Shown here piece after piece: positions 9,196-64,000 of a stretch of DNA of 64,000 nt. The notes under the pieces were generated by a model. The model ran no database searches and was not told the DNA's origin. It worked only from the letters and a program-made list of their open reading frames with translations. The stretch's first letter is position 1. Every line of letters begins with the position of its first letter. This DNA comes from Blepharisma japonicum (Eukaryota; Ciliophora; Heterotrichea; Heterotrichida; Blepharismidae), in contig CATKHK010000076.1 in assembly GCA_949751835.1 (NCBI GenBank), positions 156,330 to 220,329 on the forward strand, given 5' to 3'. The position numbers were made by a program, and so were the translations under genes.

Positions 9196-9295
9196 AATTT
9201 ATAAAGGATTTTTGAAATTCTGCATATCCAGAGCGCAGCTACACAATAAATTTGCAAATTACATTTTACAATAAATAAGCAAAAATATATAATTA

Positions 9296-10303: not shown

Positions 10304-10386
10304 TTAATAAAAATCATATGACTCTTATTAATTTTATATAAAAAATATATTAATTCCAATTTTTATGCCAAAAAAGAAATCAAGAA

Positions 10387-12102: not shown

Positions 12103-12120
12103 ATTACAATTTTTAACATA

Positions 12121-12792: not shown

Positions 12793-12873
12793 TTTTCATT
12801 AATTATATATTTGAAATAAATTCAGCTAACTATCTTAATCAATAATAATTTATAATTTAGATTAAATAAATTC

Positions 12874-13155
12874 TTATTTAGGAATAAATTTCTCTGCAAA
12901 TTCCTGTAATTGAGGGATTGAATGTATGCCTGCAATTTCTTTAGCAAAACTAGGATCAACGCTGAATTTGGATCTAAGGCATAATGACATTACTAACTCA
13001 GCACCATCAAATTCATCTAGCCCTAACTCTGCAAATGTTGACTGAGGCTTTATATTGCTTTCTGGCACCTGGTTTTTCTCAATAAGTATGTTTTTAATCA
13101 TTGGAAATAACTCTGCTTTCGTCACGAAAGACCTGAAAAGTCGAAATCCCAACAT
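12874..13155 (-). CDS. Mitochondrial acyl-carrier-protein-like protein lacking the phosphopantetheine Ser
   Basis: 93 residues, stop TAA. The N-terminus (MLGFRLFRSF) looks like a short mitochondrial presequence. The rest aligns by eye with ACP helices: 'STFAELGLDEFDGAELVMSLCLRSKF' against the usual 'LGADSLD..EL...LEEEF'. The Ser that carries 4'-phosphopantetheine is replaced by Glu (E48), so it probably cannot be a normal holo-ACP. Mitochondrial ACP (NDUFAB1) also serves as a structural subunit of complex I and binds LYR proteins; a structural-only paralog is the simplest inference. Another window-external ACP would be needed for fatty-acid synthesis. Confidence 0.8.
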   Translation of the reverse strand: MLGFRLFRSFVTKAELFPMIKNILIEKNQVPESNIKPQSTFAELGLDEFDGAELVMSLCLRSKFSVDPSFAKEIAGIHSIPQLQEFAEKFIPK

Positions 13156-13294
13156 ATATTTTGTTAATATTTGCGATAAATGGTTAAAGGTAAGCTAATT
13201 TATTTGCGAATCGAGATAAATTATTTAAAAATTCATTAAGACGAATGCCAAAGCCAATTTATCATAATTTATTAGCTGAATAATATAACTTAAA

Positions 13295-14095
13295 ATGCCA
13301 TTAGCTGTCCACCTAGCAGGGCTGATCCGCATCAACTCCGAAAAAATCTCTAACATTCTTATGCGAATCCTAGGACCCATCCTTATAGTTGCTCTATTTC
13401 TCCTAGTCGGAACAGTGACATATTCATATTTCAATGATGTGCTCCCACGAATATCACCCTATTATGGAATCTGGCAATCCCTTATTCTAACCTCCATAGG
13501 CTTATGATTTTTATTCAATATCCTATTCAACTATATTATGTGTGTAATAATTGGCCCTGGAAACCCGGAAGACTTTCCTGGGTTTCCCAAATGTAAATAT
13601 TGCAAGACAGCTAAACCACCCCGAGCACATCATTGCTCAATCTGCAAAAAATGTGTTCTGAAGATGGATCATCATTGTCCTTGGATTCATAACTGCATGG
13701 GACATAAAAACCATAGATATTTTTTGCTGTTTTTGACTTATATTACTTTAGGGTGCTTATTTTATGTAGGAGCTAGCTATCCTTGTTTAGGAGCAAGGCC
13801 AAGAATTGCAACTTTACAGCTGTCGTTTGTGCTTTCTGCTGTTTTTTCGGTGGTTATAGCTGGGTTTGGAGGGTGGCATTGGTTCTTGGCGTTGAGAGGA
13901 AGGACAACTATTGAGCTTTTTGGAATTATTGGAGCACCTGAACTTAAAAGGATTTATGATTTTTCAAGAGGAAGCTGGAGGAAAAATCTTGAAACAGTTT
14001 TTGGTACCCAAAGCTTACTTATAAGCTTAATGCCAAGGATGTCAAAGCTGCCATTTGATGGAGCTTATTGGCCAGATACGATTCACAGTATTTAG
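13295..14095 (+). CDS. DHHC-type protein S-palmitoyltransferase
   Basis: 266 residues, one UGA-Trp near residue 72 ('IGLWFLFN'), stop TAG. The Cys-rich DHHC domain lies at about 90-142, with zinc-binding Cys/His and the catalytic '[20 protein letters not shown]' sequence. Four hydrophobic segments flank it in the usual 2+2 topology (about 25-48, 60-85, 145-165, 175-198), and the 'TTIE' motif follows TM4. It attaches palmitate to Cys of membrane-associated proteins. Substrates unknown. The same-strand NOP2 gene starts 118 bp downstream. Confidence 0.92.
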
Positions 14096-14213
14096 ATTTT
14101 TGAGATATTTAGCATCATATAAATTATCATTATTTATTTATCAAAGCTTAAATATTTTGGTAGCTTTAAGAAATGCATAAATTAGTCTTTTTAATAATTC
14201 CATATTAATTTCA

Positions 14214-15998
14214 ATGAGTGAAGAGATATCTGTCCATGTATCCGAAGGAAATGACACACACATGAAGTCAGATCTTGGATTAGTTCACATGAAAATTCAA
14301 GAGCTTGTTCAAACTCTCGTTCGATATAAAGATGAACCCAGAGAAAAAACACGATCTGAATATCTCGATGAACTTGTGGACAATATCATCATTTATTATG
14401 AGTACAATCGAGACCTCGCTACCTACCTCGCATCATTTTTCCCACCAGCTGAGCTTGTTGAATTCTTAGAAGCTAACCAAACCCCACGTCCTATGGTAAT
14501 CCGCACAAATACATTGAAAACAAAGAGAAGAGAACTTGCCCAATCACTGATACAAAAAGGTGTAAATCTTGATCCAGTAGGCGAATGGAGTAAGGTTGGA
14601 CTGAAAATTATCGAAAGTCAAGTCCCAATAGGAGCAACTACTGAGTATTTGGCTGGTCATTATATGCTTCAGTCAGCTAGTTCATTTCTACCTGTGATGG
14701 CCTTGGCACCTAAACCAGGAGAAAGAATACTTGATATGTGTGCTGCTCCAGGAGGAAAAACAACACACATTGGTCAGCTGATGAAAAATACAGGCGTTTT
14801 AGTCGCTAATGAGATGAATAAGGACAGACTTTTATCAATAAAAGGAAACATCCACAGGCTTGGAATAACAAACTGTATTATCACAAACTATGATGGAAGA
14901 AAACTTGGAAAAGTTTTAAACGGATTTGACAGAGTATTATTAGATGCTCCATGCTCTGGGCTTGGAGTTATATGGAAAGACCAATCAGTAAAAGCAATGA
15001 GAACAACTGAAGATATCAAGAAAAATTCCCACATACAAAAAGAGCTATTATTAGAAGCAATTGATGTAGTAAACGCTAGATCAAGCACAGGAGGATACAT
15101 TGTGTATTCAACTTGCTCAATTTCTATCGAAGAAAACGAAGAAGTGATCAGCTATGCCTTGAAAAATCGCCATGTAAAAATTGTTGATACTGGGCTTACT
15201 ATTGGAGAGCCTGGGCTTCCAAAATTCAAAGGAAAAATATTCCATCCATCAATGACTAAATGTAAAAGAATTTACCCTCACGTTTACAATATGGAAGGGT
15301 TCTTCGTGTGCAAACTAAAGAAATATGATAATGAAATACCACAAGAAGCCAGCAAGCCACATAGTGGAGAAAAAAGAGAAAAAGCCAAAAAACAAAAGAA
15401 AGAGGACAGCGATATGGAGGTTGAAGAGGAAAAAGAAGAAATTGAAGAGGAAAATGAGCAATGGAGTCCGGAAAAGAAGCAGAAAGAAAAAGAAAAAAAA
15501 GATGCAAAAAGGAAAAAATTGATGGAAAATACATATGAGAATGAAGAGTTAGAAAACTTGATACATGATCTTAAAGAAACGAGTAAGAAAGAAAAAAGAA
15601 ATAAAAAAGAGAAAAAAGAAAAAAAAGAAAAAAAGCATGAAAAAGAGATTAAAGAAGAAAAATCAGAGGAGCAGAGCTTTGGGGATCTTGATATTAATAT
15701 TGCAGACAAAAATGCTGAAAAGAAATCAAAAAAGAACAAAAGCGAGACAAAAGAAAGTAAAAAAACAAAAGAGGAGCTAACAAAGCCAAAGAAAAAAAAT
15801 TCTATTGAAAAAGAGCAAGAAGAAATTTCAGAGGAAGAGGTAGTTGAAAAGAAAAAGACAAAGAAAGGCAAAGCTAAAGCTGCAAAAACACATGAAGACG
15901 AAGAAGATGCTGAAAATGAAGAATCTCTGCCTGTTAAGAGAAAACACAAAGAAGACTCATCAAAACTGAAAAAGAAGAGAAAGTCTGAAGATAGTTAA
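14214..15998 (+). CDS. NOP2: NOP2/NSUN1 rRNA cytosine-5 methyltransferase
   Basis: 594 residues, no intron, stop TAA. The NOL1/NOP2/Sun domain covers about 45-370: SAM-binding 'LDMCAAPGGKTTHIG' (near 172), 'DAPCSGLG' with one catalytic-motif Cys (near 245) and 'YSTCSI' with the second (near 300). The sequence 'RTNTLKTKRRELAQ' and the ending 'MEGFFVCKLKK' match NOP2, which makes m5C in the large-subunit rRNA and is needed for 60S assembly in the nucleolus. Residues 375-594 form a Lys/Glu-rich tail like nucleolar tails; in yeast and human the acidic/basic extension is mainly N-terminal, so the placement is different here. Confidence 0.92.
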   Translation: MSEEISVHVSEGNDTHMKSDLGLVHMKIQELVQTLVRYKDEPREKTRSEYLDELVDNIIIYYEYNRDLATYLASFFPPAELVEFLEANQTPRPMVIRTNTLKTKRRELAQSLIQKGVNLDPVGEWSKVGLKIIESQVPIGATTEYLAGHYMLQSASSFLPVMALAPKPGERILDMCAAPGGKTTHIGQLMKNTGVLVANEMNKDRLLSIKGNIHRLGITNCIITNYDGRKLGKVLNGFDRVLLDAPCSGLGVIWKDQSVKAMRTTEDIKKNSHIQKELLLEAIDVVNARSSTGGYIVYSTCSISIEENEEVISYALKNRHVKIVDTGLTIGEPGLPKFKGKIFHPSMTKCKRIYPHVYNMEGFFVCKLKKYDNEIPQEASKPHSGEKREKAKKQKKEDSDMEVEEEKEEIEEENEQWSPEKKQKEKEKKDAKRKKLMENTYENEELENLIHDLKETSKKEKRNKKEKKEKKEKKHEKEIKEEKSEEQSFGDLDINIADKNAEKKSKKNKSETKESKKTKEELTKPKKKNSIEKEQEEISEEEVVEKKKTKKGKAKAAKTHEDEEDAENEESLPVKRKHKEDSSKLKKKRKSEDS

Positions 15999-16575
15999 AT
16001 TATAATCCTATCTATCCTTTTTTTACAATAATTGAAAACTCATAAATATGGATATCACTTCATTCTCAATTATTTGAAACACAAACTATATAGTAATCAA
16101 ATTCTAAGATAAAAGAGTTTCATTTCTAAAGAATATGAAATAAAAAGGCCATTTAAATTATAATTAAAAGATTACTACTATTTTGATTTAATTAATTCTC
16201 CTAATCGCTAACTCTCGCTTATGTAATTACTAATAGATTTTTTGGTTATTATTAAAGAGACATTATTGTTTAATTCAGTTTGCTAATGAATTTATATTAA
16301 GTTAATATCAAGTTACAAAAAAAGGCTAAAATTAAGGCATATATTTATTTAAAAAACTATCAAAGATTATCTTAGACGCTAAATATATAACATATATTAT
16401 TTTAATGGATAAATAATAAGATTTCGAGTCTTAAAAAATTCAAAAATATGATAATACTTTTTGGTTTAAAAGTACTTAAGAACTGCTTTATAAAGGATAA
16501 ATAATTGTTTAAATTCTAATATCAAATTTTCATATTTTTCTCTTGAGGATATAAACTGCTAATTACATCAAGCAC
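15999..16575. other. AT-rich intergenic region
   Basis: 577 bp between NOP2 and the first Kelch gene. I see no open frame, RNA gene or repeat in it. Confidence 0.5.
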
Positions 16576-19500
16576 ATGGCAATGGTTATTCTATTTCTTA
16601 TTATCTCAGCGATAATAGCAATTTCAGCTATCGAAGAAAGAAAAATACCTGAAACGGGCTGCCCTCCAACAGCAAGATCATTACCATCATCAGTATTCGA
16701 TAATAATGCAAACAAACTTATATTATTTGGTGGGGCTTCAGCTGAAAACGTTTATTATAATGATGTATGAACCTTCAATTTTAACAATAATCAATGAAAA
16801 GAATTATACCCTACATCGTCAAAAGTTCCAGACGCAAGAATTGAATCAGCATCATTTTTTAATGAAGCACAGAATTCACTAATAATTATGGCTGGCAAAA
16901 CCTCACTTGGAGCAATATCTGACATTTGAAGCTTTGATTTAGATTTATTAGTTTGGAAGGAGTTAGAGCTGCAAAACTGCAAATTAAATTCACTTTCGTC
17001 AGTAACATATGATACTTTTAAATGAAAAGGTAGTATTTATTTTGTGATTTTTGGGGGAGCTGTGGACTCTGGATTTTCAAATTTAATTTATTTGTAAGAG
17101 ATATTGTAGGATTGATTCAGGTAGTTTAAATTGTACCATAATGCCAAACACTGGGGATGGGCCTATTTCTACTCATAGTGCAAAAATTACATTTTATAAT
17201 GAAAAACTATATGTATGAGGTGGACTTTCAACTGAATATGTATATGATAATAATCTTTATATATATGACTTGAAAAACCAAGCCTGAGCAAAAAGAACTT
17301 TTAATGAATCTCCCATTGGAAGAATGTGGCATTACATAGGAATATATTCTGAATTTTTGTATATTTTTCCAGGATTTAATTATAATTATGATGTTGAGAT
17401 AAATGATATTTGAAAAATCAGCTTAAACGATTTAAATAAATGAATAGAAATTGATTTTGCTATAGAAAAAAGAACTCAGCTAAGAAGCCAATCTGGAAAT
17501 ATTTTTATTAACTCAACTTTATTCCAATACAGTGGATCAAGTTATACAAATGACTTAATTTATATTAATATTTCTTATGAAAAACCAACTTTTTCAACAT
17601 TGACTTCAAATTGAGTTTCACCCCCTCCAAGGATGAGATTTGCAATGGAACAAATAAATAATAAAATTGCGATATTTGGAGGTCAAGGCAGAAATGGCAA
17701 GTTGTAACATTAAATATAGGTTAAGTGATTTTTGAGTATACAATATTGATACTAATGTATGAGAGCAAGAAAATCCTTTATATGAGCCATCTGCAAGATT
17801 TGGGCATGCTTCTACTGGGATTGGCTATGGAATGGTCATTTTTGGAGGAGAAGATGCAACTGGATTGCTCAATGATTTTTATATTTATTCTGTAACTTCT
17901 AAGAGCTGATCTCAAATCATTACTAATACAGGTGAAAGCCCTTTGCCTGTAAAAGGCGCATGCATAGATGCTGCAATTCCTTATATATTTCTATATGGCG
18001 GAGTAACAGGCTCAGGCCTTGGTAATATTTTATATGAATATGATATAACAATTTTAGGATGAGTCCAAAAAATCACTTTAGGCGAAACGATCCCTCCTTT
18101 AGCATGACACCAATGCTATGCTGATCATGAGGATAATGACTTCTTGTTTTATGTTTTCATGGGAGAAACAGATAATAATCAGCCGAATAAAAGTATATAT
18201 CGATACAGTTTAAACAAAAACTCATGGGAAGTCGTTCAAACTATTGATTATCTACAATTTTCTTTAAGTGAGGCATCAAACATAATTCTATCAACTTCAT
18301 TTATAATCACTATTGGAGGAGAATTTAAAAATATTTTTTCATCAAATACTGCTATTTTTCTTAATGGACAAAATTTTACACTTGTATCAACACTCGGCTT
18401 AAGCACAAACATATTTAGCCACCAATCAATTTACATGAAAAATGCTATATACATATTTGCTGGTGCTAGGACAAGTTCATTTCGAATAAACCAAATTCCT
18501 ACATCAGATTTTATTAAATTATCAATAGATAATGGCCCTTGCAGTGACGGAACCTATAAATCAGGCTCAGAGTGTTTGTGATGCCCTATAGGAACTTGAT
18601 CAGATGATTCAAGCATAGATGAATGCAACCCATGCCCAATAGGAACATCAAATGCATACCTAGGAGGAGCAAGCAAGTTTGTATGCGCTCCTTGTGAGCT
18701 AGGGACTTATAATGATATTCCTGGGTCTGGAATGTGCAAAAAATGCCCTGCAGGTATGACATGTCCTGTTGGATCTACAGAGCCAATTATTTTACTACAT
18801 AATGATGATGAAAAGACATACCAACCTGACCAGTACTCACCTGAGCTAAGTGTAATTCAAAAAGTCACTCAGTGGCTTGGCATTGGACTTGGGTTATTTT
18901 TGATCTTTTGGGTATATATTTTGGCTTGAAGTAGTAAAAATTTTGAAAAATTCATGAAATTTGATATATATAATGATAAACATAATGAAGAAGGCAAACC
19001 TATGTACCTTAAACGAACAAGCATTGGAGGGTTTTTCTCAGTTTTAGCATTTATTGGAGCAATATATGTTTTTACTTTATCTACTCTTGAGTACTGATAC
19101 AATAATGTGGCTGAATCAAAGACTTTACTTCCGTATGAAACTCTTCTAAAGCAAGCTGAAGAATTTAACAGTGATATCACAATTATAGTTGGAGCTTATA
19201 ATTATGGTGGCTCATGCATTACAGGCAGTGATTGTAATAATTATATATCATGATATCAATACAATATTATCAGCGACTCGGCTATAGTAGAATGCTATAA
19301 AGAGCAAAGAAATTGCTTTTTGCGAGCAACATTCACTTCATGCAAGCTTGGTACTGGAGCTCTTTTTTACATATCTTTTGCTGAGTCAACAAGCTATGCA
19401 AGCTATATATATGCAAATGTAACAGCAGATTCTTCAATTCCTAATCAAAAAAGTTCTCACGATCTTTATCTTTCCCCTCCTACTGGCCAGGTTTTTATAG

Positions 19501-20446: not shown

Positions 20447-23400
20447 ATGCATACTTTAAATAGTATTTTATTTCTTGTAGCTTTTCAACAAATTTTTGCT
20501 TTACCCACAACTCGAATCCCAGAAACAGATACCCCTCCAGATTCCAGAATTTCAGCAGCTTCCACATACATTTACACAGAAAACAGTATAATTATATTTG
20601 GAGGCTCAACTGATAAAAGAGTATATAAAAATGATCTTTGAAGCTTTAATTTATCGTCTCATATATGAAAACAACTTAATCCTGTATCATCAATTTTACC
20701 TGATCCTAGAATTGGGTCGTTGCTCTTTTTCAGCAAAGAAAGAAATAGTCTCATTTTAATTGCAGGAAAAACCACAAGTGGTTCTATTGCTGATGTTTGA
20801 AGTTATAATTTAGAGTATTCTGAATGAGAAAAAATAAGTTTGAATGGGACAAAGTTGAATGCTTTATTTGATGCAGCTTCAGATATTTTCGAATGAAATG
20901 GTAATTTTTATTATGGGATATTTGGAGGTGTTACTGAAAAAAAATCACAAAATTCTTTATATTTGTAACATTTATATCAGAATTGATGCAAATTCTCTGA
21001 ATTGCACTATTATGCCAAATAATGGAGATAGTCCTATATCAACAGCAGGTTCAAGAATGTCATTTTATGGAAATTCTTTATATGTTTGAGGAGGATATGC
21101 TTTTGGGGTTGGCTATGATCCTAACTTATACCAATATAATTTAGCCTCACAAAAGTGAATTAAATATAATTTTTCCTCAACTCCGACTGGAAGATCATGA
21201 CATCACACAGCTGTCGTTTCTGGCTATTTTTATATAACCCCAGGATTTAATTATGTAAAAGCTACAAACCTCCAAGATATTTGGAAAATAAACTTAGCGA
21301 CCTTGTCTGGATGACAAGAAGTTGAGTTTTCTAAAGGCACAAAAAAAGAAATTCCTTGCGAATCTGCAATAATATTGATTAATTCAACTATCTATCAATT
21401 CAGCGGCTCATCATTTCAGAATGACCTCCTATATATTGATTTATCTATAGACAATCCGAAATATAAAACACTTTCTCCTATTTGAAATTCTCCAGCAGCA
21501 AGAATAAGGTTTTCTATGCATGCAGTAAACAATTATTTAGCTGTATGAGGTGGAATAGGCGTAAACGATGAACTGTAAATTATATATAGATATAATGACT
21601 TATGGCTATTTGATATAGAAAATGAGAAGTGGGAACTGCAGAGTATTGATAATCCACCATCTGCAAGATCAGGGCATGCAAGTGTTGGGATCGGATATGG
21701 GATGATCATGTTTGGAGGGGAAAGCATTGCTGGGCTGCTTAATGATTTTTATATTTTTTCTATAGCTACAGGCACATGGCAAGAAGCAGTTAAAAATTCA
21801 GACACAGTCCCATCACCCACAAAAGGTGCTTGCATGGCTTTTACACCTCCTTATGTCTTCCTATTCGGAGGTTTAACTGATTCAGGGATAACTAATGATT
21901 TTTGAGTATACGATATTACAGTTTTATTATGAACATCATTATCACCAACAGGAGTCGAAGTCCCTCCATTAGTTTGGCATAAATGCTATACAATAGAAAA
22001 AGATGACGATATCGAATTTTATGCAATTATGGGAGAAACTGATGAATATCAGCTTAATCAAAACGTTTATAAATACAGCATAAGTACTAATCAATGAGAG
22101 TTAGTTAAAGATTTGAATTTTATTTCAGGATCAGTAAGCGAGTCTTCAATCGTGCTACTTTCTAAACATTTGATGATTTTAGGAGGAGAGCTTCAAGGGA
22201 CATATTCAACTGGCTCTGTTATTTTTTTGAATTTGGAAACTTATACAATTGATAAATATTATGTATTAGACTTCAATATATTTGGACATCAAACTGTTTA
22301 TGTTAAAAATGATTTATATATATTTGGAGGAGGTGTTTCCAAGACAAATATTATAAATTTGCTGCCTTCTGCATCTTTGTATAAAATTGAAATTAAAAGT
22401 ACTATAGATAGTCCTTGCAGCAGAGGAACATATTTTTCGGAAAATAATTGTATATGATGTTCGCCAGGGACATATAATGAAAATATAAATTCAACTGAAT
22501 GCTTGGAGTGCCCGTTTGGGACTCAAAACTCTTATACTGGGTCTGCAGCGAGCATATTTTGCCTTCCTTGCCCTTATGGAACTTACTCAAACACAAATGG
22601 AACCGGAATGTGCAAAAAATGCCCCGGAGATAAAATATGTAATGTCGGCAGCATAGAGCCAGCTAACCCAGTTTTTTATTCTCCAAAATCATCAAGTCAG
22701 CCAGATGATTTTGACCCAAAATATGGTTTAATTCAAGAGTACACAGCCTATAGTGGCATTTTTTTTGCAGTTATATTAAGCACTTTCCTTTTAGCAATAG
22801 GCATAAAAAAACAGTTCAGAGAGTCTGTTGCCCGTTGAGATTTATACGACGATAAGCACAATGAAGATGACCAGCCCATGTGATCAAGAAAAACAAGTAT
22901 TGGAGGAGTTTTTTCAATAATTTCCCTTATAATTGCTGCTTATCTCGTTTCCATCTCCTTTGTACAGTATCGTTGGAATAACATAGTAGAATCAAAATCC
23001 TTAATTCCAATTGAAAATTTAAGGAAACAAGCTGGAAGAATTAAAAGTGATTTGTTAATTGTAATTGGGATTTATAATTACGGAGGAACCTGTGTTGAAA
23101 ATGATTCTTGCAATGAAAACATAGGTTTTAGCTTTGAACATATTCAAGGAGATTTTAGTAAAATTAAGTGTATTAAGCAGAATAAAAACTGCTTTGTGGA
23201 AATTACTTGCAATTCATGCTCGCTTGGCACTGGGGCTTATCTTTATTTGCTGCTAGCAGAGACAACTAGCTATTGCAGCTATTTTTCCACAAATATATCG
23301 ACAGGGTCTTCTATACCTGGAGAGAAAAGCTCTATGAGTCTTTATGTGTCTCCTCCGAAAGATGAAGTTTTTATAGGAAATAATCCATCATATGTACATT

Positions 23401-24134: not shown

Positions 24135-24758
24135 CTATTTATCATCTCTTTTCAACCCCCCAGGTCTCTCATGTGCTCTATAAATATGCCCCTTCAAATT
24201 TTGTTTCGATCTTAATTTCCCACATTGTGGACAAGGTATAAATCTAAGATTAAAATGCACGAAAATATGCTTTCTATAATAAAGACTGCAATAAGGTTTC
24301 TTACATAAATCACAAATTACAGTACTTTTATCTTCAAAATAATCTATTTTTGATCCAATTGCTTTATACTCATTTTCATATATTTTAAAATAATCCTTGA
24401 CCATATCTTTGGTTAATTTATGATAAATCCTCAAATGAATAATAAGTTTTGAATATTCCTTATTTCCACAGAGAAAACAAATGGTATCTTCATCATCTAG
24501 AGGTCTGTTGCTGGGCTCATTTAAGAGATTAAAAAGGTTTCTGGAAATAGAAAGCTGGGATAATACAGTTGGATCTTTTATGTATCATTCGTTGATTAGA
24601 AATGGAATCGATTTTCTGAATTTCGATGTGTTGAGATAAATCATGCAATCTTTGAGATTTTTTGAGTCGAATTGAAGGTGATCTGGCCGTGGCTTATATC
24701 AGTTTGTAAGCAAGCAGTATTCAATAACATCGCCTGGGTCATAATAGCTTGTTGTCAT
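24135..24758 (-). CDS. C2H2 zinc-finger protein
   Basis: 207 residues reading UGA as Trp at 'LTNWYKPRP' and 'INEWYIKD'; stop TAG. Three Cys2His2-like units are visible: 'CFLCGNKEYSKLIIHLRIYH', 'CDLCKKPY...RKHIFVH' and 'CPQCGKLRSKQNLKGHIYRAH'; the last is the most canonical. The N-terminal 90 residues are not recognised. Nucleic-acid binding is likely from the finger type, but the target is unknown. It converges on the Kelch copy 2 gene with 159 bp between the stops. Confidence 0.78.
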
Positions 24759-24969
24759 TATTGAACTTTATGGGGCTTGAAATAAACATAAATTTTCATA
24801 ATTTTATAATTATCTATTTTAAATATTTTAAAATATTGCAAGCTTTGAAAAATTCCTTACTCTATGCATGAATAATTGACTTTCGAATAGCTAATAAGTT
24901 ATAAATTAGTTCTATTCATTAGAAATCTCAAAAATTAACTATCTAATTTCACAAATTAATTATCAGAGT

Positions 24970-25227
24970 TTAGAATTCACGGTTTTCTGTTATATTGCCC
25001 TCCTCCTTTTTTTCTATTGCTTGTTTAATTTCCTCTCTCAACGAATCAACCCGTTTTTCTCTATTTTCCAATTTATCATTTGCTTTATTGACCCATGCTT
25101 CCAATTCCACAACTCTCAGCCTAAAAGCTTCATTTTGGTCCACTATTTCTCCTAACGCATCTTGCAGTGCCTGAATATGCTCTTGTTTTGCTTCGCACGC
25201 TTCACAAGCTTCTTTCCTTTCTTCCAT
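24970..25227 (-). CDS. Small coiled-coil protein
   Basis: 85 residues, stop TAA. Nearly all helical with heptad spacing (Leu/Val at a/d in 'ALQDALGEIVDQNEAFRLRV') and a Cys pair at the N-terminus ('CEACEAK'). No family recognised. A standard ATG and an open frame in AT-rich DNA support it, but the short length leaves doubt. Confidence 0.55.
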   Translation of the reverse strand: MEERKEACEACEAKQEHIQALQDALGEIVDQNEAFRLRVVELEAWVNKANDKLENREKRVDSLREEIKQAIEKKEEGNITENREF

Positions 25228-50576: not shown

Positions 50577-51695
50577 TTAAAATCTATGCCTTCCCATCCC
50601 AATATTCCCTAGATTTCCAATAGGCCTTGATATTAAATTCGCTCCAGCCTGTCTTAAATTCTCTCCATTTGTTTTTCCCCTTCCAAATGACATTGGAGAT
50701 ATTCTGCTCTCATTAATCTGATTCATGCTTTCCAATTTTATAAACGATCTTTCATTAACAGGACTTTCATTATTTGATGCAAGCTTACTAGGCCTCACTG
50801 GGCTTAAACTGTCCATTCTCATAGTAGGTGATGGCGGGCTTTTAATTATTCCAAAAAACGGATGCTGCAAGCATTGCTCGGCATTGGGTCTTAATGATGA
50901 GTCTCATACTAATAAAGACTCAATAAAATTAATTGCATCTGGAGAAGCATTTGGGATAATATTTTGTATAGGAATTTTTACGTATTGAGGAAAACTGTAA
51001 TTCATTAGTGCAGCTAGTCGTTGGCCTTCAACTCAGTCAGTAGGAGTTCCAAGGACAGAGCATATACGGTTAAGCTGATCAGCTTCATTTGTACCAGGAA
51101 ATAGAGGCCTCATAAGATAAAGCTCTGCCATTATGCAGCCAACTGCAAATAAATCTACTTGAAAATTATATCTTCTGCTATGAAGCAATATTTCTGGAGC
51201 TCTATATCAGCGAGTCGCTACATAATCTGTATATGGAGGTTGACTTCTGATTTCTCTTGCCAGCCCAAAATCAGCGATTTTATACGTGCCTTCGTTCACC
51301 AAAATATTATCAGGCTTCATATCTCTATGAAAAAATCCTTTTCTATGTAGCTCAGATAATCCATTAAGAACTTGTAAAATGAGATCCTTTATCTGCGATT
51401 CTGTCATCGGTGAAGAAAATTCATTCATCATCTGTATTATGTTTTTCTCACAGTATTCAAACACAAGATGAAGCTCGTCATTAGCGCGGATAACTTCTTT
51501 AAGTCTCACTATGTTTGGATGTGTAATTTTTCTGAGGACTTTTATTTCTCTTAACTCAAGACACTCTTCTCAGCTATAAAATTTCTTTTTCATCTTCTTA
51601 ATAGCAACTATTTCTCCAGTATCTTTTATTACAGCTTTGCTTACACAACCATATGTGCCGTCGCCGAGGTTTTTAATCACTTTGTACCTCTCCAT
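50577..51695 (-). CDS. MAK/ICK/RCK-family protein kinase
   Basis: 372 residues with several UGA-Trp (including 'ATRWYRAPE', 'PTDWVEGQ' and 'LLVWDSS'); stop TAA. Kinase domain 4-285: 'LGDGTYGCV', 'VAIKKMKKK', '[10 protein letters not shown]', 'DFGLAREI' and a 'TDY' activation motif ('[17 protein letters not shown]'). TDY and the '[23 protein letters not shown]' insert match MAK/ICK kinases, which control cilium length in protists and animals. The C-terminal 85 residues are Ser/Pro/Arg-rich, disordered and probably regulatory. Confidence 0.9.
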
Positions 51696-52275
51696 GATAT
51701 TTTAAAAATAGGATAATTTGGAGCATAAAATGAGCGATATTATAATGTAATCCTTTGTGATGATATTTATGGGAGTAAAAATCAATACGAATATTTAATA
51801 AATAATAAGGAAACAAGATATATTGAGGTAAAAAAATTAAAATTTATTAAAGCTAAGATGTAAATGAAAAGTTGAGAAGAGATTATTAATTGATTGGGAA
51901 TTAGAAGGCAAAGGCTAATTTTTCATATGATATATTCAATAATTAGATCGCAATATAATTGAAGTTTTTCAAAAAGATAGATTATTAATTTAATACTAAC
52001 CATTGTTATAATTGTTTTCCTCTAAAATAGGCATATATTATTACGACGGTGACTAAAATGTGAGTCGGAAATTTATAATTTTAAAAAATTGAGGTAAATT
52101 GCAATTTTAGAACAAGATTAAAATTGATAAAAGCGGTTTATAGTTTCAATATTATATTTTGAATTATCTGTGTTTTACTAATAAAAGCATATAAGCAACT
52201 TTAATTTGTTATAGGTAAATAATAATTATAGCTGACATTGCATAGCTATAAAAATATTGTAATCAATCTTTAACC

Positions 52276-52319
52276 GATTTCCTTATTAAAAATTAACGGA
52301 ATTTATAAACATTTAAAAC
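52276..52319 (+). repeat. 44-bp module, copy 1
   Basis: Begins GATTTCCTTATTAAA and contains AACGGAATTTATAAAC; identical over all 44 bp to copy 2. Flanks are only loosely similar. Confidence 0.9.
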
Positions 52320-53025
52320 AAGCCTATCATTTACAAGAGCACTTATGCCAAATAATCATCAATAGAAACAACAAAGTATTTCTCTATATTTATGCAAAAA
52401 CAATACATTATAAGTCATTGAATTCTAGAAAAATCACAACTGAACACAATGGCTTATAATTTGCATTTATGAAAGCAAAACAGGTATTCAACATAATGTT
52501 GATTCTGGTATTCAAAAGCCTTTACATTTAAATATCTGATTCAAATATCAGTTAGATACAAATTGCCATAAATTATTATCATATCGAAAAAGAAAATTTT
52601 CAATCTTAAATTAATTGTGTCGCTTTCTATTTTGAACTTGTATTTTCATAATAAAATGATCATAAGAAATGTTGCATCATAATTGACTAGGAGAATTAGC
52701 TATAATAAAGAAGTAAAAAAGACTCAGAAAAATATAAAATGGCTTATCCTTTTTTATTATACTATTATGCTCACAAAATAATTCCCTGTTTTAATATAAA
52801 ACATCTTAGATATGTTTGCGAATTGGGATAAGCAAAAATAGTACAATCCTCTTTAATTTTGTGGAAGATATTATCATAGAAGCTTCATCAAATATATTTA
52901 AAGACTGAAAAAAACTTCTTTACGAAAACAGATTTTGCGAAATTGAAGCAATTTTAAAGGAATTTAAATAAAATATATCAAAAAAGAAAAAGCTATAATA
53001 TATATATTTATATAGAGATAGATGT

Positions 53026-53330
53026 AGAGCTTATAGCAGGATTTTCCTAGCGCTAATTGCAATCTATATTTGGCCAGAGTTTATGCCTGAAGATCTTATT
53101 TGAAAGTTTAAAAAGATTGACACCAAATCAGAAAGGAAGAAAGAAATTCTTTTCAATTACTGCTGAAGTTTATTGAGCTAATTATATAAATTTATATTAT
53201 CAATTGGAAAATGTTGAACATGGTACTGGCTTAGAGCCTGAAGAGGTTGCACATAGCTTAAAAAGAGCTTTCATCAAGTCACCTAATCTTGGAACATGAT
53301 TGCTTTTATGCATATTACTTTAAAATAGAG
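53026..53330 (+). pseudogene. Decayed coding remnant in repeat unit 1
   Basis: Read with UGA as Trp, the plus strand shows frame-broken pieces such as 'YIWPEFMPEDLIWKFKKID' and, one frame away, 'NVEHGTGLEPEEVAHSLKRA', each ending at UAA. A related piece lies near 54510-54700 in unit 2 ('IQIYGW', 'LIPED', 'NRIRKKRRIRS'). I cannot name the family. Confidence 0.35.
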
Positions 53331-53735
53331 CGAATTAATCTGTTCATCTTGCTAATTAGCCACAGCTGAACTTTATTAATGGTTTCTCTTAATCTTTCAA
53401 TTAACACTCCATCATTCTTGGATTTCAAGTGACTTTTTATGTAACCAACTTTGCTCTCTACAAATGCAAATTGGGGTACATATGGAACGTTGAAAATAAC
53501 TCTCATAGCAAGAAAAATGTATAAATTTAGATTTTCAGGTGTCTTAGTGCCACGATGTGCAGGAATTATTGCTTTAAGATCAATAATTTTAAAAATTAAC
53601 AATTCGAAAACTCTGCTCAGCTCATTCAAAACTAAATTAAATGGATAAGTTAGTTTATAGCTTCGATTTCATTTTTTGCATAACTCATTTTTACCTATAT
53701 AAGGGTAGAATCAAGTTTAATTTGTTAAATAGCAA
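53315..53735 (-). mobile_element. Transposase C-terminal fragment, Tc1/mariner (IS630-like) type
   Basis: Reading the minus strand with UGA as Trp gives about 140 codons, beginning after a UAA and ending at UAA (53315). It contains 'PAHRGTKTPENLN' and then 'VPYVPQFAFVESKVGYIKSH', which fits the DDE transposase pattern 'DN.PIHRS...LPPYSP.LNPIE..W..LK'. The Glu of 'FVESK' sits at the third catalytic position; the Asp expected before the His is Ile ('AIIPAH'). The N-terminal DNA-binding and first catalytic parts are missing, so this is a remnant. It sits directly before module copy 2. Confidence 0.55.
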
Positions 53736-53799
53736 ATAAAAATTTACAACTAATATTGCATAATACAAAATTATTTTAATTAATAAAAATCATTTAACA

Positions 53800-53843
53800 G
53801 ATTTCCTTATTAAAAATTAACGGAATTTATAAACATTTAAAAC
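53800..53843 (+). repeat. 44-bp module, copy 2
   Basis: Identical to copy 1 across 44 bp. The preceding 100 bp also share patches with copy 1 (for example TTTAATTTGTTA and ATTGCATA). Confidence 0.9.
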
Positions 53844-54957
53844 AAAACTTATCAGTTTCAGCAGCATTTAAGCCAAATTATAAATAAAAGACGATACAGA
53901 ATATTTAAAACGAATTGTACAAAAGCCATGCATTACAAGGATATTGCAATTTATAAAAATTGCTCAACTGATATAGTGGCTTACAATTTGCATCTTCGGT
54001 GGTATAATCGCACTCAATCTAAACTTGACTATGATACTCAAATTGCTGCACCTTTAAAATCTAATTCACTAATCTGTAATAAACAAATTGCCACAAATTA
54101 TTTTTAATTTGGAAAAGAAAATCAAATTAAAATTAATTGAGTTGTTTTCTGCTTTTGAACGTTTATATTTGAATACTGAAAATGATCATTAAAAATTTAG
54201 AGTCATAGTTTAATAAGAGAGTGAACTAATGAAACACAGGAATGGCTCAGAAAAAAATTAAATGGCTTAATTTTGCAGGTATAATAGAATAATAAAAAAA
54301 AAATTTCACTTTTTTATTAAAAGAATGTTGAATAAATTTGTAGAGATTGGAGAAAAATATCCGGTAAGCAAAAGATGCATTACTTACTATATTTTTGTAA
54401 AAAAATACGACTATGGAGGTGCAGTGAAACAAAAGTTTTATAGACTGGATTGCAGCATACTTACTTAAGCAGATTTCACCAAATTGAATAAATTTTGCAA
54501 AAGCTGCTCAAATGAAAGTAAAACATAGATGCTTCTATAGAGTAGATGGAGAGATGCTGCAAATTTCCCTGAAGCCGATTCAAATCTACGGGTGATAAAA
54601 GTTGATTCCTGAAGATTAAATGTTCGAGCATTGAGAAGATTGAAATCGCATAAGAAAAAAAAGAAGAATAAGATCTTTTTAATTGCTAAAGCTTATTGAA
54701 ACGCTTTTATAAAATTGGATATTGCTATGTAAAAATTTAAAATTCAAAGTTTTGAATGAAAAAAATCAAAATAGTTATAAGACTAATATAATTTTAAATA
54801 ATATATAACAAATAATTTTAGAAAAGATAAAGGAGATAATATTTTTGATATTTTATTTATAAATGATATGATTTTGCTAAAGATAAAAATGCACAACAAA
54901 CATTGCAGTGTATAAAATTTAAATAAGTTTGAATCAATAAAAATGGCATCTTTAATC

Positions 54958-55001
54958 GATTTCATAATTAAAATTTAACGGAATTTATAAACATTTAAAA
55001 C
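54958..55001 (+). repeat. 44-bp module, copy 3
   Basis: Matches copies 1 and 2 except in the first third; the core AACGGAATTTATAAAC and the following ATTTAAAAC are unchanged. Confidence 0.88.
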
Positions 55002-56274
55002 AAAATATATTAATTCCAGCAATACAGAGGCGAAAAAAATTGTATATGATGCATGAAATCATTGTTCATCAATTGAATCAAAATATTACATTGTAGAGGA
55101 ATTATAGTTTATAAAAATTACACATTGATGCAATGGTTTCCAATCAGCAAAATATACTCAAGATGATTTTATACTCGATGTTAAAACTTATTTCCGTTAA
55201 AAAATCTTATTCAAATATCTATAAGAAACAACTTACCTGAAATATATCTTAAATTATAAAAGATAATTCCTTCCTATGATAATTGAAATGATTTCTATTT
55301 TGAACGTTTTTCATTATAATAATGAAGTGCTGCTTAAAAATTAGCATTAAAATTTTGCAAGTAGATGAGAAATAAATACGACTCACTAATCTTTAAATTG
55401 GTAAATATTTTTTATTAGACTGCTTTACTTACAAAAAATTAACCTGCTTTATTTAAAGTGCATTGAACACATTCCAAATCAACTAAAAGCATACCAAAAA
55501 TTAATCTCTGCCACTCGCTTTAGTTTTGTGGAAGATAATATAATTTATCTAAAGTAAAACTCTTGAAAGTTATATACAGCCTCGCCACCACCTTACACAA
55601 GCATATATAGCTAAACCGAAGAAATTTTAAGAAATTAACATAGACATCGATGAAAATAAACTATCCACTGCAAAATTCTAGTCTAACTGATTAAAAATAG
55701 ATAAAGCAGTTTGTATTTAAATATTTACTTAAGGAACTATCCAACTTTAAGTTTTTTCAATTCGAAAAAACTTATATTGACTGAAATTTCAAAGATTATC
55801 TGTTTTGAAGGAACTTGAAGAAAGAAAAATTTTTCTCTGATGGATTAGTTTAAATTCATAAGTCTGCAAGGACCTAATTATTTTTTTGAGCCATATAATT
55901 AATACTTCCAAAGCAATTTGAGCTTCCAGAGGATAAAGATAAAAGAGAAAATAAATGTCACATATTTATAAATTATTTTTAGATTGGCTTTTCAATAGAT
56001 GATAATTCTAAAAGCTTAAATAAGATTTCAAGGGAATAAATAAACTGAACTAAATACCCATGATCATACTATTACTAAGTAAATGCATATAAATATTACA
56101 ATTTTTATATAAACCAATTTGCACATAATCTTAAATGAATGTGGTTTATAAATTAATAGTTTTATTTTCTCAAAATTACATATAGTTAACTATTAATTTT
56201 TCACCTTAAATTCAACTAAACTGCTGCTTTATGTAGTCTAAAATTGATGGGGTAATAAATTTTCATTTTAAATT

Positions 56275-56318
56275 GATTTTACTATTAAAAATTAACGGAA
56301 TTTATAAACATTTAAAAC
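56275..56318 (+). repeat. 44-bp module, copy 4
   Basis: Same core and length as the other copies; the first 10 bp differ slightly (GATTTTACTATTAAA). Confidence 0.88.
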
Positions 56319-56454
56319 TAAAAAACTGAAAGGAAGTACAAAATAAGTCAGCATTGCACTTATGGACTTTTAAATACAATTACTGCACAATCGAAGAAAT
56401 TGATAAAGCAATTCAATTGTAACGATTGCAAATGGAATAAACAAAACTACTCTT

Positions 56455-56640
56455 AGACAGCATACGCTTGTGTGGGAAAATTCTCAAATTTCTAAGCAGC
56501 AGCCTGTGTGCTAGGCCTCTAGCTTCAATTATTCAAGTTATCACTTGCTATATCTACCCACAATAATCGCACAGGTAAATATAACGGGCATCCAAGAAAA
56601 AGAGACTAGGTTCTCCCCGGCCTCTTTATGCATATACTAA
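56455..56640. ncRNA. Candidate structured RNA (GC-richer island)
   Basis: A stretch of about 185 bp clearly richer in G and C than its surroundings and without a sensible open frame. It can form a perfect 5-bp hairpin at GCTAGGCCTCTAGC (about 56510-56523) and a longer near-palindromic stem between AAAGAGAC and GCCTCTTT (about 56600-56628). GC islands in AT-rich genomes often mark RNA genes. I could not match it to a tRNA, U1-U6, SRP, RNase P or telomerase RNA, and the strand is unknown. Confidence 0.3.
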
Positions 56641-57894: not shown

Positions 57895-58749
57895 TTATAG
57901 CTCAACTATTTCTTTCTTATTTAAATTGAACTTAAAGTATTTTCTGTTAGTTCTAAATAAGCTTCCAATATATACCCACCTATTATTATATGTTCAACTA
58001 GCATGAGGATGATAATTGGCCATTAAGTCTATTATTGGCTTTCAAGAATACTCATCTCCATATTCGCTTTCATAAATAAACCCTGCACACTCAATCAATA
58101 CTAATTTTCCAGGATTAACCAAGATCTTTCCTTTTTGACTTGCGAATTTATTGTAAGGCAAAATTGAAAAAGAGTCTAAATCAATTGAATATAAGAAAAT
58201 ATTTTTACTAAAAAATCCACAAATCAAAATATTCCCATTAAACACAATACTTTTGCAAAAAATATCAGGCTTTGGCATCTGAGTTAATTTAATTCAGCAA
58301 TTTTTATCCAAATCATATCTTTCTGACAGATTCAAACTATCTCCTTCATCATTATATCCTCCAAAGCAATATACGCTTCTGTCGAAATAAATAGCTGAAG
58401 AGAAGCGGACTGGATTTCCTGATGGCATAACTCGAACTCTATAGTTTTTATCAACTATCAAAGTAATCCCAGAAACTGGATTATATCTACCAAAACAAAA
58501 TAGCTCACCATCTGGAAGTTGAGCAACAGCTGTTCCATCATCTAATTGCTCTGAAGTATCTAGGGTAATTATGTCTTCTTTTTCACATTCAGTATTATAA
58601 ACATGTAGATAAGTTCTTTCGGAATTATAACTAGAGAGGTAAAGATTTTTACAAGTTTGCTTTGCTTTGATATTGAGTTCTTGTAGGTTTGATGAGCTAA
58701 CTTGAGGTTTTAGCAAGCTTATTTGATTTTGGGGCTTGGATTCCATCAT
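57895..58749 (-). CDS. Kelch-repeat protein, copy A
   Basis: 284 residues with UGA-Trp ('KNCWIKLT', 'DEYSWKPI', 'HASWTYNN'); stop TAA at 57895. Kelch-type blades: 'FSSAIYFDRSVYCFGGYNDEG', 'SIVFNGNILICGFFSKNIFLYS'. The protein is a short propeller with no other domain. It is a paralog of the gene at 59190-60056 (same order of 'KPQNQISLL'/'RTQNQINSL', 'VYNTECEKED'/'IYNTKSEKED', 'QMPKPD'/'PMPKVD'). Either adjacent Met could start it. Role unknown; similar short Kelch proteins may be E3 substrate adaptors. Confidence 0.82.
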
Positions 58750-59189
58750 ATTGATTATTAACCGTTTAATCTCTTTTAAATTAATGTATAGATATAATAG
58801 TTGATTTGATTTTGAGTTCTGGATTCCATATTATTAAAAATTATTAATTGAGATTAGTTGATGGCCTGAAGTTTAAGGTAAGGGTTAAATATATTCAATT
58901 ATTTATTTGAGGTAAATAAGTTGTCAAATCATTTCTACAGGCCATGGAATTCCTGAGCATAAATAATACTTTAATGCTGAAATCCTTTCCTTAAAGCTAT
59001 AATAAAAGCCAAAAAGGCTTTCGTTAATATTAAAACCCAAAAATGTAGTTTAAAAATAATTCCATAATTCTAATTAATAAATGGATAAAAAGTCTCTCAA
59101 ATTCTTTTATTATCTAGTACTAACAAATTCATATATCAGCTTTAAAAAATTATAGGAAATATCCTGCTTGTTATTTATTTTTAAAATTT
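58750..59189. other. Spacer with duplicated gene start
   Basis: 440 bp between the two Kelch paralogs. Around 58790-58835 it repeats the start region of copy B on the minus strand (ATG at 58829 and the first ten codons). The rest is AT-rich and unrecognised. Confidence 0.6.
58782..58835 (-). pseudogene. Orphan 5' fragment of a Kelch gene
   Basis: From the ATG at 58829 the reading 'MESRTQNQIN' equals the start of copy B, with identical DNA for about 38 bp including upstream bases, then diverges and stops at UAA after about 16 codons. It lies upstream of copy A. Confidence 0.7.
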
Positions 59190-60056
59190 TTACCTCTTAA
59201 TTTTCACTTCCTTAACAAAACAGAGTAATTTTTCGTCTAGGTTAAATTTAAAATATCTTTTGTGAGGATATTGAAGGATTCCAATATTTATCCATCCTTT
59301 ATTATATGAGTAATATACTTGGGAATATGCGCATGCTAATGTATTTGCTATTTGTTTCCAAGTATACACATCTCCAACTTCACTTTCATAAATTAACTCT
59401 CCACGGACAATAAGTAATAATTTCTCTTCTGCGTGGACCAAAATTTTTAAGGCATAACCATGAAATTCATAAGGCAAAATTGAGAACGAGTCAATATCAA
59501 TTGAATATAGAAAAAGATTTTTATTTACATACCCAGAAATCAAAATATTCCTATTAAATACAATGCTACTTGAAACACTGTCAACCTTTGGCATTGGAGT
59601 TAATTTAATTCATCTATTTGTATCCAGATCTATTCTTAATGATAGAGTCAAATAATTCCCCATATAATCAAATCCTCCAAAACAATAAATATTTCTGTCA
59701 AAATAAGCAGCCGAGGAATAGCTGCAAGGACTTTTAGATGACAATAGCTGAGTTTTAAAATTCTTATCAACTATAAAAGCACCACAAGCAAGATAAGATC
59801 CTGCAGAACAAAATATCTCGCCATTTGGAATTGGAGCAATACACGATATATTTTCTAATGATCTTGGAGTATCAAGTATTACTTCGTCTTCTTTTTCACT
59901 TTTAGTGTTATATATATGCAAAATAATTCTCTGAGTATTATTATCATTGTTTATAAGATAAAGATATTGGTTTTGGGTGTATGCTACTTCGACATTGGAT
60001 CCTTTTAGAGAATAAGAATTAAGAGAGTTGATTTGATTTTGAGTTCTGGATTCCAT
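59190..60056 (-). CDS. Kelch-repeat protein, copy B
   Basis: 288 residues with one UGA-Trp joining 59610 and 59594 ('TNRWINLTPMPK'); stop TAA. Blades include 'YSSAAYFDRNIYCFGGFDYMGN' and 'SIVFNRNILISGYVNKNLFLYSIDIDSFSILPY'. The last motif is almost shared with copy A ('FLYSIDLDSFSILPY'), so the two are tandem duplicates. No catalytic residues; probably a protein-binding propeller. It starts 51 bp downstream of the end of the broken USP gene on the same strand. Confidence 0.84.
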
Positions 60057-60106
60057 ATTATTAGAGTATCTATTAAATTTGTTATTTTATCCTAAATAAA
60101 TGTTCA

Positions 60107-62052
60107 TTAACTGTTTTGCATATGGTTTTCTTTAACTATAGTTTCCAAATTTCCTTGAGCATTTGTTGGGATTATTAAAAAGCTCTGATATTCGTCAAGC
60201 AAATGAGTCTCTACTTTGCAGGAATAACAATATTGATTTTGCTTGATAAAATTGGAAAAAATATTATTATTTGGGATAGCCTCGTCTAAGGAAGAAGCAA
60301 TTATTTGAAAAATTTCTTTGGAATCCTGCTGTGAAAATGAGCTTATCTATGTGGAAATTACATGCGGGAACTCTTTACCTATTTCGAATATAAATTTTTC
60401 TAGAGAAGATGCTAAACTTGTTGTTTAGTTGATTTATTTCTAACTTTTTCTGATAAGTTTGAGAGCTTTTCAAGCATAGAAAAATTCGAAGCATTTTGAA
60501 TTGTTTCTACAAAGCAGTTGGTGCTGGCTAAAATTTGTAATAAAGAATTCATATAGCAGCTGCTCCCTATATTAGGCAATCCTTGCTTTCTATACTGAAA
60601 AATTGGTGATGAATTTTTGCTTAAGCTTTCTTTAGGAGTTTTAACTTCTTCAAAAGCAGTATTCTTATTTTTAATTTGATCAATATTTTCAGTAGGATTT
60701 ATAATGGTTGGAGCTATCATGATACTTTCCTTTAAATTTTCAACTATTAAAACATTTCTTTTTAATTCTTTCATAAATCATGGAGTATTTTGTGAAGAAC
60801 TATAGCTCTCACTTGAATCAATTTTTGTTTCTTCAATCGTTTTATCATCTAAATTTTGCTTACTGTTAATTTCTTTTTTGCCATGCTCTGATTTTTTAAT
60901 TATTTGATCCTTTTCTTCAATTATATCTTTTAAATCCTGATTTTCTTTTTTGTATTTCTCTACTTTTCTGGCTTGATCTTTGGATGTTAACTCTAATTCC
61001 TCGATTTTCTGCTTTTGTTGTCTGATTGTGTTTTTTAAATTGTCAATTTGAGTTTGATGCACAACTTTTATGCCAAAATCATTTTCTTTATTGCTAAGGC
61101 ACAAATCTTCTTGGGAATATTGGCAGGAGAAATCTTGAAATATAGGTCTTTCTTTTGCTGATAATTTCGTATTTGATTCATTAGTTTCAGATACCAATTC
61201 GACACAGGTAGCAGGCTTATTAAGAAGATTTAGAATCATTGAAGTATTTACTATCAAAATTTGGTTATTAATAGCGTTATCTTCCTTCTTTTGCTCCTCT
61301 ATACTATAGTTTTTTAATTTTTTAGCTGGAGAAATTTCCTTTTTATTCTTTTTGTTAGGTTGATTTTTATTAATTACTGTATCGTTATTTTTTATATTTT
61401 TACCTGCGTTTTTATTTTCAATCTTTATTCACTGTTTTTACTATTGCAAAATAAGCAATCTATATTTTGCAGTTCATTGAAATTAATGCTTTGGGAATTA
61501 AACTTATTACCTTTTGCATAGCAAAGAATAGTATCAGATCAGTTTCAATTTTTATTCTTGCACGTGCAGCTTAAATTCCTCCATTGGTCCTGAATAAAAC
61601 AAAAGCAAAGATTTGCTTTCCCTGAAAACACTGCTGAAAGTCTTCAGTTAGTATTTTTTATAGTAAGATTTGTTTGATATTTCCAAAACCCTCTAATTTG
61701 GCAAAAAAAGCTATAGTTTTTTTGTTAATTTGGTTTTCATCGATGACTTTTTTATTTGGTATTGATAAATATTTTATAGAATTTTTTGTTGACAAAGAAT
61801 TTTCATTATTTTTAAATAGTAGATGAAGTTCATTTAGCCATACTTGCAGGCTGCTTTGGGAAACTGGATTATCAAATTTGCTTAAATCGATAGAAGGTAT
61901 CTGGCATTGTGCTGCATCTTCAAGCCATAATTTTAATTGAATCCTGTAGTTGTATTTGGATTGAGAAATTGATTTTGATTAATTGCTTGAAAAATATAAA
62001 ATGCTGAAACTATTGGCCAGTTCTGACAAAAAGAGATGACTGAAGACTCCAT
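60107..62052 (-). pseudogene. Broken ubiquitin-specific protease (USP) gene
   Basis: The USP Cys box is visible ('GLPNIGSSCYMNSLLQIL'), preceded by a Lys/Glu coiled coil, and 'SFSQQDSKEIFQIIASSLDE' and 'CYSCKVET' follow, joined by a 15-nt intron (60347-60361). Between the Cys box and the QQD box the frame shifts (UAG at about 60423) and no GT-AG removal repairs it. The His box is absent: the frame ends at TAA (60107) soon after 'FLIIPTN'. Upstream, 61260-62052, three partial frames with Cys pairs ('CLFCN', 'CTCKN') do not join by a standard intron. Likely a decaying paralog of the next gene; an unusual intron structure is the alternative. Confidence 0.6.
60347..60361 (-). other. 15-nt intron in broken USP gene
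   Basis: On the minus strand GTAATTTCCACATAG, phase 0, in-frame TAG if retained; removal gives 'EFPHISSFSQQDS'. A at position 10. Confidence 0.75.
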
Positions 62053-62593: not shown

Positions 62594-64000
62594 CTAATAT
62601 TTCTTATAGAATGCAAGATTAAGTCTATTCCAATCAGGCTCATTTTTGCTGACTCTTGAATCATCATATTTCTCCCATTCATTTTCACTATTCTTAGTGA
62701 ATGCTATGAAATGAAACCCATAATAGCATATTACTCCGAAAATTTGGTAAGTTTCTTCTCCAATCTTCAACTCTTCTGCGAGTTCAATATCATGCTTGCA
62801 ATTTGGTATATAAATTGCTAAAATATTTGGTCAATCAACACTTTCAGTTTCCAGTGTTATATCTCTCAATTCTCCACATTCATCGCAAATTAATTTATTT
62901 GTCCCATAAAAATAGTTCTTTTCTCCGACTATCTTGTTTAAAAATTCTCTGATATTGTTTTGACAATTTTCCGGAATATATATAAAACTTGAAAGCTCAT
63001 TTGTTAATGATTTATGTTTGCGGGTGCATGTAAATATTTGCCTTTTTATTACAGTAAAAAGATTTGCATCTTTAGCTCTATCTGATATGATGGCAAACAG
63101 CTCTTTTGAATCATTTGGAGCTATTCATTCATACTAAATAAATAATACTATTGGATATTCTACTGAAATTATATCTTTAAATTGATTGATATGTGGTATT
63201 ATTTGACTCTCTGTAGCGTTAATGTTCATTAATGATGTAACTGTATATAGACTCTGTAATAACTGATCGCCACTAATGCTGCCTATATATTTTTTAAATT
63301 CAGAAATACTTGCTAATATTTGTATAACAGAATTCATATAGCAGGTATTTCCTATATTTTTTAAGCCAGATTTGCTATAAACTTGAGATCTAGCTGGCAA
63401 AGTTTTAACCTGAGTGCTTCTAAGCGGGTTTTTTATTTGCTGATGATTATGAGGATCGATACTACGTCTTGGTGGCTGAGTCTCTGTTTGGGAAGTTAAT
63501 GATGCATTTATCCGAAGTGCTGCTTGAGGTTCATTTGAACTAATAAAAGATTGTCTGAAAATTTCTGACTTATATTTTTTTATTTCTTCCTCGATTATTT
63601 TTAACTTTTTACTAGCTAATTCCTGGCATCTCGCGAGTTCAGCTATTTCCTTTTTATTAATATTGCTGTTATTTGATATATTTTCAATGCCATCATTAAC
63701 TCTCAAAAATCTTGTATTTAAATTAGCACTTTGAGTGCAAAGCTTTTCGATATCAGATTTATTAGTCTTGGATAACTTATCAATAGCATTAATCTGATTC
63801 CCTATTTCTTCAATAGAACTATTGAGCTCCACTTTTTTCGTATCAAGCTCCTTTTTGACAGAGCTAGACATTAAATGAAAATTAGAATTTAATTCATTTT
63901 TAATACTCTTGATCTCTTTATCGGTATATTCTTTTAAGCTGTTTTCAATTTCAGTAAGATTAGTTCGTTTTGCATATTCGACTTTTAAAATTTCAATGAT
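62594..64000 (-). CDS. Ubiquitin-specific protease (5' end beyond window)
   Basis: 463 residues visible after a 15-nt intron (63134-63148); the frame is open to the right edge, so the start is outside. A coiled coil (about 1-150) precedes the USP domain: Cys box 'LKNIGNTCYMNSVIQIL' (Cys about 218), 'PNDSKELFAII', a zinc pair 'CDECGE', and the His box 'CYYGFHFIAF' with 'KYDDSRVS' supplying His and Asp. Catalytic residues look complete. It removes ubiquitin from proteins; substrates unknown. Short compared with most USPs because the finger region is small. Stop TAG. Confidence 0.85.
63134..63148 (-). other. 15-nt intron
   Basis: On the minus strand GTATTATTTATTTAG, phase 0, in-frame TAG if retained; removal gives 'EYPIYEWIAPNDSKE'. 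A at position 10. Confidence 0.87.

Follow-up and report, generated by a model that had tools for sequence, protein, structure and literature searches.

Long noncoding and siRNA-producing loci of other ciliates form noncoding, AT-rich, locus-specific arrays, and the product sequences of nematode 21U-RNAs are not known to be conserved. According to three reports, C. elegans has more than 15,000 piRNA (21U-RNA) loci with the Ruby motif, which yield precursors of about 28 nt, and these loci are clustered, each with an upstream motif that recruits the polymerase (PMC4015492, PMC6436959, PMC7917550). The array of Blepharisma japonicum described here is like the ciliate loci in being noncoding, AT-rich and locus-specific, and like the Ruby-motif loci in being clustered, each unit having a motif upstream that would recruit a polymerase. 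C. elegans, however, has more than 15,000 such loci and the array 17, with skewed DNA that extends over a few hundred bases. Here a conserved motif is followed by seven unlinked downstream groups, and the products are putative, as is the likeness to the Ruby-motif loci. The snRNA-type promoters of the same genome are also like the array motif in that their upstream element is AT-rich and partly TATA-like. In the literature searched, which included parts of two Blepharisma papers, we found no description of a 44-bp start motif common to such loci.

For Blepharisma stoltei, the genome report gives UGA as a tryptophan codon, CCCTAACA as the telomere unit, an AT content of 66% and a somatic genome of 41 Mb, and describes this genome as gene-dense with short intergenic regions (PMC9942806). 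The window, that is, the whole stretch of 64,000 nucleotides analysed here at the right end of contig C76, has a mean AT content of about 67%, and the tryptophans of a protein kinase gene at 50580-51701 (-), including one in ATRWYRAPE, are read from TGA. On these features and the telomere-like tandem repeat described below, the genome is taken to be a somatic one of Blepharisma. The preliminary description reported four copies of a 44-bp motif, the first two of them identical over 44 bp, within units that keep patches of similarity. The copies are indeed found on the + strand at 52276-52319 (copy 1, with a 25-base core at 52295-52319), 53800-53843 (copy 2, identical to copy 1), 54958-55001 (copy 3) and 56275-56318 (copy 4), with spacings of 1524, 1158 and 1317 bp, and the similarity of their surroundings is patchy, chiefly among copies 1-3. 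A 16-base core has four exact matches in the window; with up to three mismatches it has five against 1.55 expected, a number reached in none of 100 shuffles, the fifth being a match with three mismatches at 56030.

The observation is real and larger than first noted. In the genome searched (45.2 Mb in 224 contigs), 17 copies are present at three places, namely four on C76 (+), 11 on C63 (+, 6121 to 30781) and two on C54 (-, 262617 and 263314); the core is found beyond the window, and its flanks are not equally conserved. The 25-mer occurs exactly at six or more places, and with up to three mismatches at 18 or more, against one for a reversed-pattern control. One of these 18 places, on C23, is an isolated match with three mismatches that is not returned by the 24-base pattern, and it is judged to be a chance match. 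The 24-base pattern with up to three mismatches is found at 17 places at least, every one with zero to two mismatches (reversed control, seven), and the C54 copies keep this core with one and two mismatches. Such genome-wide repeat counts are minimum values, and strongly diverged copies elsewhere may be missed. A position-weight matrix gives the 17 copies scores of 26.5-65.4, with no other site in 182,142 bases exceeding 10, and a 65-position sequence model gives them 37.9-56.7 bits and the next best match 12.7 in 201,061 bases of fetched DNA; both were trained on the same 17 copies, whose own scores are high by construction, and it is the gap to the next match that matters. The 27-base motif has no exact match in viral_contigs or in genome_contigs, the latter being bacterial and archaeal and of little weight.

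Conservation is sharply limited to the block. ATAA and ATTTAAA are invariant in all 17 copies, beside a nearly invariant AACGG; the TATA-like TTATAAA is altered in three of the 17, and variable sites within the block include +7 (A/T) and -13/-12. Mean pairwise identity is 0.93 at 0 to +20, 0.78 at -20 to 0, 0.62 at +20 to +40 and 0.36-0.51 in all other 20-base bins from -160 to +240, as computed without a shuffled control. Over the 136 pairs, the right edge of ungapped similarity has a median of +24 (interquartile range 22.75-27, 10th-90th percentile 20.5-32.5), and the left edge is looser (median -15.5, 10th-90th percentile -25.5 to -4). The flanks of the close pairs 63i/63k and 76b/63a are still related from about -150 to +350. 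BLAST of the region +60 to +330 alone (E <=0.001, single linkage) divides the 17 units, which are paralogs and not independent, into seven downstream families. Looser alignments anchored at the motif cross these families, as with 63e/63k (63% over 404 columns); the family count depends on the method, and such cross-family identities are also reached by gapped alignment of shuffled flanks. Gap-permissive pairwise flank identity is 0.69 against 0.70 for shuffled flanks, and because shuffled flanks equal them, gapped flank identities with their binomial values, as well as absolute values of the pairwise profile, prove little. Some columns of this profile fall to 0.00 through alignment slippage (63g/63h, 76d/63b).

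Base composition changes at the motif. Averaged over the units in 100-bp bins, AT skew on the motif strand is about +0.02 for the three bins just before the motif and +0.15 to +0.16 for the three that follow it; as far as about +700 it then lies at +0.07 to +0.13, beyond that at +0.02 to +0.05, and farther upstream at +0.03 to +0.09, with +0.07 to +0.09 at -500 to -300. All 17 units have positive AT skew in the 300 bp downstream. Their mean step at the motif, 0.133, is reached in none of 5000 random-shift sets, and by four of 301 common shifts (-40, -30, -10 and 0). Calculated per family, the AT-skew step is 0.141 and positive in all seven families (equalled in one of 5000 random-shift sets), and the GC step is 0.053 and positive in six of the seven (two of 5000). 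A negative AT-skew step occurs in a single unit of the 17, 76c (copy 3; -0.067), because the 300 bp upstream of this copy are also A-rich, and a negative GC step in two, 63e and 63j. Coding-strand AT skew is positive in all 13 hand-picked long ORFs of the window, with a mean of 0.14 and a range of 0.017-0.355. In the simplest reading of the skew step, the DNA downstream of the motif would be transcribed on the motif strand.

We lean slightly towards reading the 44-bp block as a conserved core promoter, and the array as a set of noncoding transcripts that evolve fast. From each copy, an A-rich noncoding transcript, perhaps 300-700 nt in length, would start along the motif strand; duplication of units, most of it in tandem, would have led to about 17 of them, and selection would hold the promoter while the transcribed sequence drifts, leaving seven downstream groups unlinked by BLAST. 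On the + strand of the window, the A-rich 300 bp after copy 1 (52322..52621) would be the first part of such a transcript, and those after copies 2 (53846..54145), 3 (55004..55303) and 4 (56321..56620) would likewise belong to proposed noncoding transcripts, all of presumed extent. A regulatory site was among the functions suggested in the preliminary description, and it gains support from the sharp block in 17 copies and from the compositional step at the motif. Here we infer transcription itself, the polymerase used and the transcript ends; selection may act on transcription as such, or on small RNAs processed from its product. If the promoter reading is true, the array would be a compact example from nature in which promoters are conserved and their products drift freely, within a kind of genome described as gene-dense (PMC9942806), its core promoter type would be distinct from the snRNA element, and it would offer a ready test of whether transcription itself, not RNA sequence, can be selected. 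That the array is an independently evolved ciliate counterpart of nematode piRNA clusters, with the promoter alone conserved and a different RNA from each unit, seems unlikely; selection would then act on having many diverse transcripts and not on any one sequence, and the transcripts might serve, for instance, as precursors of small RNAs or as antisense RNA to the Kelch genes nearby.

Protein-coding and structured products were also considered. No convincing ORF is present in +27..+427: in 16 of the 17 units, 11 or more of 200 shuffles match the longest ORF (11 for 76b, 17 for 63a), the exception being 63h with 80 aa, reached by one of 200, and downstream of copy 2 the longest ORF has 59 aa and is reached by 11 of 200. 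A protein-coding family or conserved frame is rejected on these mostly shuffle-level ORFs and on the 1-nt indels by which close unit pairs differ. A stop-free frame can be read by eye through most of the core; the core as a coding exon is rejected, since 63k has TAA at the core end and the indels lie downstream in close pairs. A structured noncoding RNA is rejected as well, with no consistent fold in the ten units folded out of 17 (150 nt per unit, z from -2.10 to +2.00, two below -2) or in four aligned units, whose consensus fold of -4.2 kcal/mol has an unfavourable covariation term (+0.75) and a compensatory change in two of 30 pairs. Rfam has no match in the window at gathering score. A 9-mer scan, in which words with fewer than two G/C were skipped and no shuffled control was used, found no second motif shared by more than eight of the 17 units. 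No clear terminator is seen among the 17 units: a T4 run occurs in 12 of them in the 40-bp windows from +320 and +340, four upstream windows also reach 12, and there are 44 T4 runs in +27..+327 against 48.2 (sd 4.8) predicted by composition.

Six snRNA genes of this genome (three for U2 and one each for U4, U5 and U6; L047-L052) have in common a TCCCWTAA located 55-61 bp upstream of the RNA match, as counted by eye, and this is likely an snRNA promoter element of the genome. The array motif does not contain TCCCWTAA and is rejected as this element. The array regions contain TCCCWTAA twice, at 51774 of the window (-) and at C63:21896 (+), the second site lying 97 bp past the start of the 63g core, and the 65-position sequence model (R1) matches none of the six snRNA loci at E up to 10.

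The block might instead be a protein-binding DNA site other than a promoter, such as a replication-origin element, an insulator or a site for nuclear organisation, which is kept in tandem and has the skew as a by-product. This explanation is doubtful, yet it agrees with a sharp block in low-GC DNA with few long ORFs and with the single orientation of the copies within each cluster, and TAACGGAA resembles a Myb site. The one-sided skew step, which fades within hundreds of bases, is more like transcription than replication, however; the skew rises from near zero at the motif without a change of sign, and no telomere link appears among the matches listed. On the last two points, the earlier suggestion of a replication or amplification site is unsupported, and neither the telomere nor the skew result excludes a replication origin. 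C54, C63 and C76 have no perfect telomere-repeat match among the matches listed, in which tandem CCCTAACA lies at the very start of C36, C47, C69, C78, C80 and C89, near the start of C11 and otherwise at high contig coordinates; the fetched stretches, including the right end of C76 and the left end of C63, contain no perfect telomere-repeat match either, and the contigs may be incomplete. On these matches, a subtelomeric repeat has no support as a reading. The preliminary description also offered selection or gene conversion as the cause of conservation. Repeated short conversion events between units could homogenise a functionless block, and window copies 1 and 2 and the C63 copy at 6121 are in fact identical over 44 bp (0 mismatches) with different flanks. 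Such concerted evolution is nevertheless quite unlikely: selection on the site fits better than gene conversion because most of the 136 pairs have a similar right edge, the C54 copies keep their core on another contig, and conversion leaves the composition step unexplained.

Tandem duplication might instead have spread a mobile element or a decayed gene family, the block being its terminus or its internal promoter. Such a mobile origin is suggested by a decayed gene fragment inside unit 1, P0002 (53318..53716, -), a frame of 133 codons with TGA read as tryptophan, which has interrupted relatives on four other contigs (C24:10239, C135:48389, C126:92042 and C55:317133). The motif is absent, however, from the 8-10 kb read at each of the relatives on C126, C135 and C55, and none of the sites listed by the genome-wide pattern search is on these three contigs or C24. 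Unit 1 matches motif-bearing units and, at the border of the P0002 fragment, C126, C135 and C55. Pieces of two further units (1001 and 511 bp) match motif-bearing units exclusively, and no motif-less relatives were found. P0002 is probably an insertion and not part of the motif system, and a mobile origin is very unlikely. The terminal motif of a mobile element proposed at first does not agree with copies that are confined to three places, on one strand per cluster, and a transposon terminal repeat is rejected, as the 17 copies include neither dispersed copies nor inverted terminal pairs. It is hardly credible that one ancestral repeat left the units as neutral relics, in which the block decayed least by chance; units of the first family and 63i/63k do align over much of their length, but the 17 copies of the block scarcely vary, against seven downstream groups unlinked by BLAST, a comparison made without a fitted substitution model. 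P0002 itself has no Pfam match and belongs to a dispersed gene family with eight matched stretches on five contigs, including that of the window; six of the eight have an internal TAA or TAG, from decay or tiny introns. We take it to be reminiscent of the C-terminus of a Tc1/mariner transposase.

Some motifs of C63 are separated by a TPR gene (20755-21435, +) and Kelch genes (22345-23364 and 24256-25148, -); in the window, Kelch genes (57898-58830 and 59193-60086, -) follow copy 4; and the C54 pair has a RAP-domain gene (+) on one side and a CoA-transferase gene (-) on the other. Antisense control of the Kelch genes by the putative motif-strand transcripts is possible, because transcription on the motif strand would run towards their 3' ends. 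The right end of C76 and the left end of C63 may adjoin, as suggested by open minus-strand frames at both ends (window 63137-64000 and L035:3-1151), by paralogous Kelch genes on the two sides (52% identity) and by the + orientation of all 15 motifs of the two contigs. The two end frames match weakly (30% over 69 residues, E 0.008, coiled-coil-like). Most of the 17 copies lie in two clusters, or in one if C76 and C63 adjoin, as they may. Within the stretch of the C63 array that lacks motifs (8882 to 16651), two frames at L036:1051-2079 (-) and about L036:3037-3905 (-), of which the one tested has no Pfam match, are paralogous, with 41-67% identity in pieces. Two frames of the window, 60415-61437 (-) and 63137-64000 (-), have the start of a ubiquitin hydrolase (UCH) domain, and the former may be a fragment.
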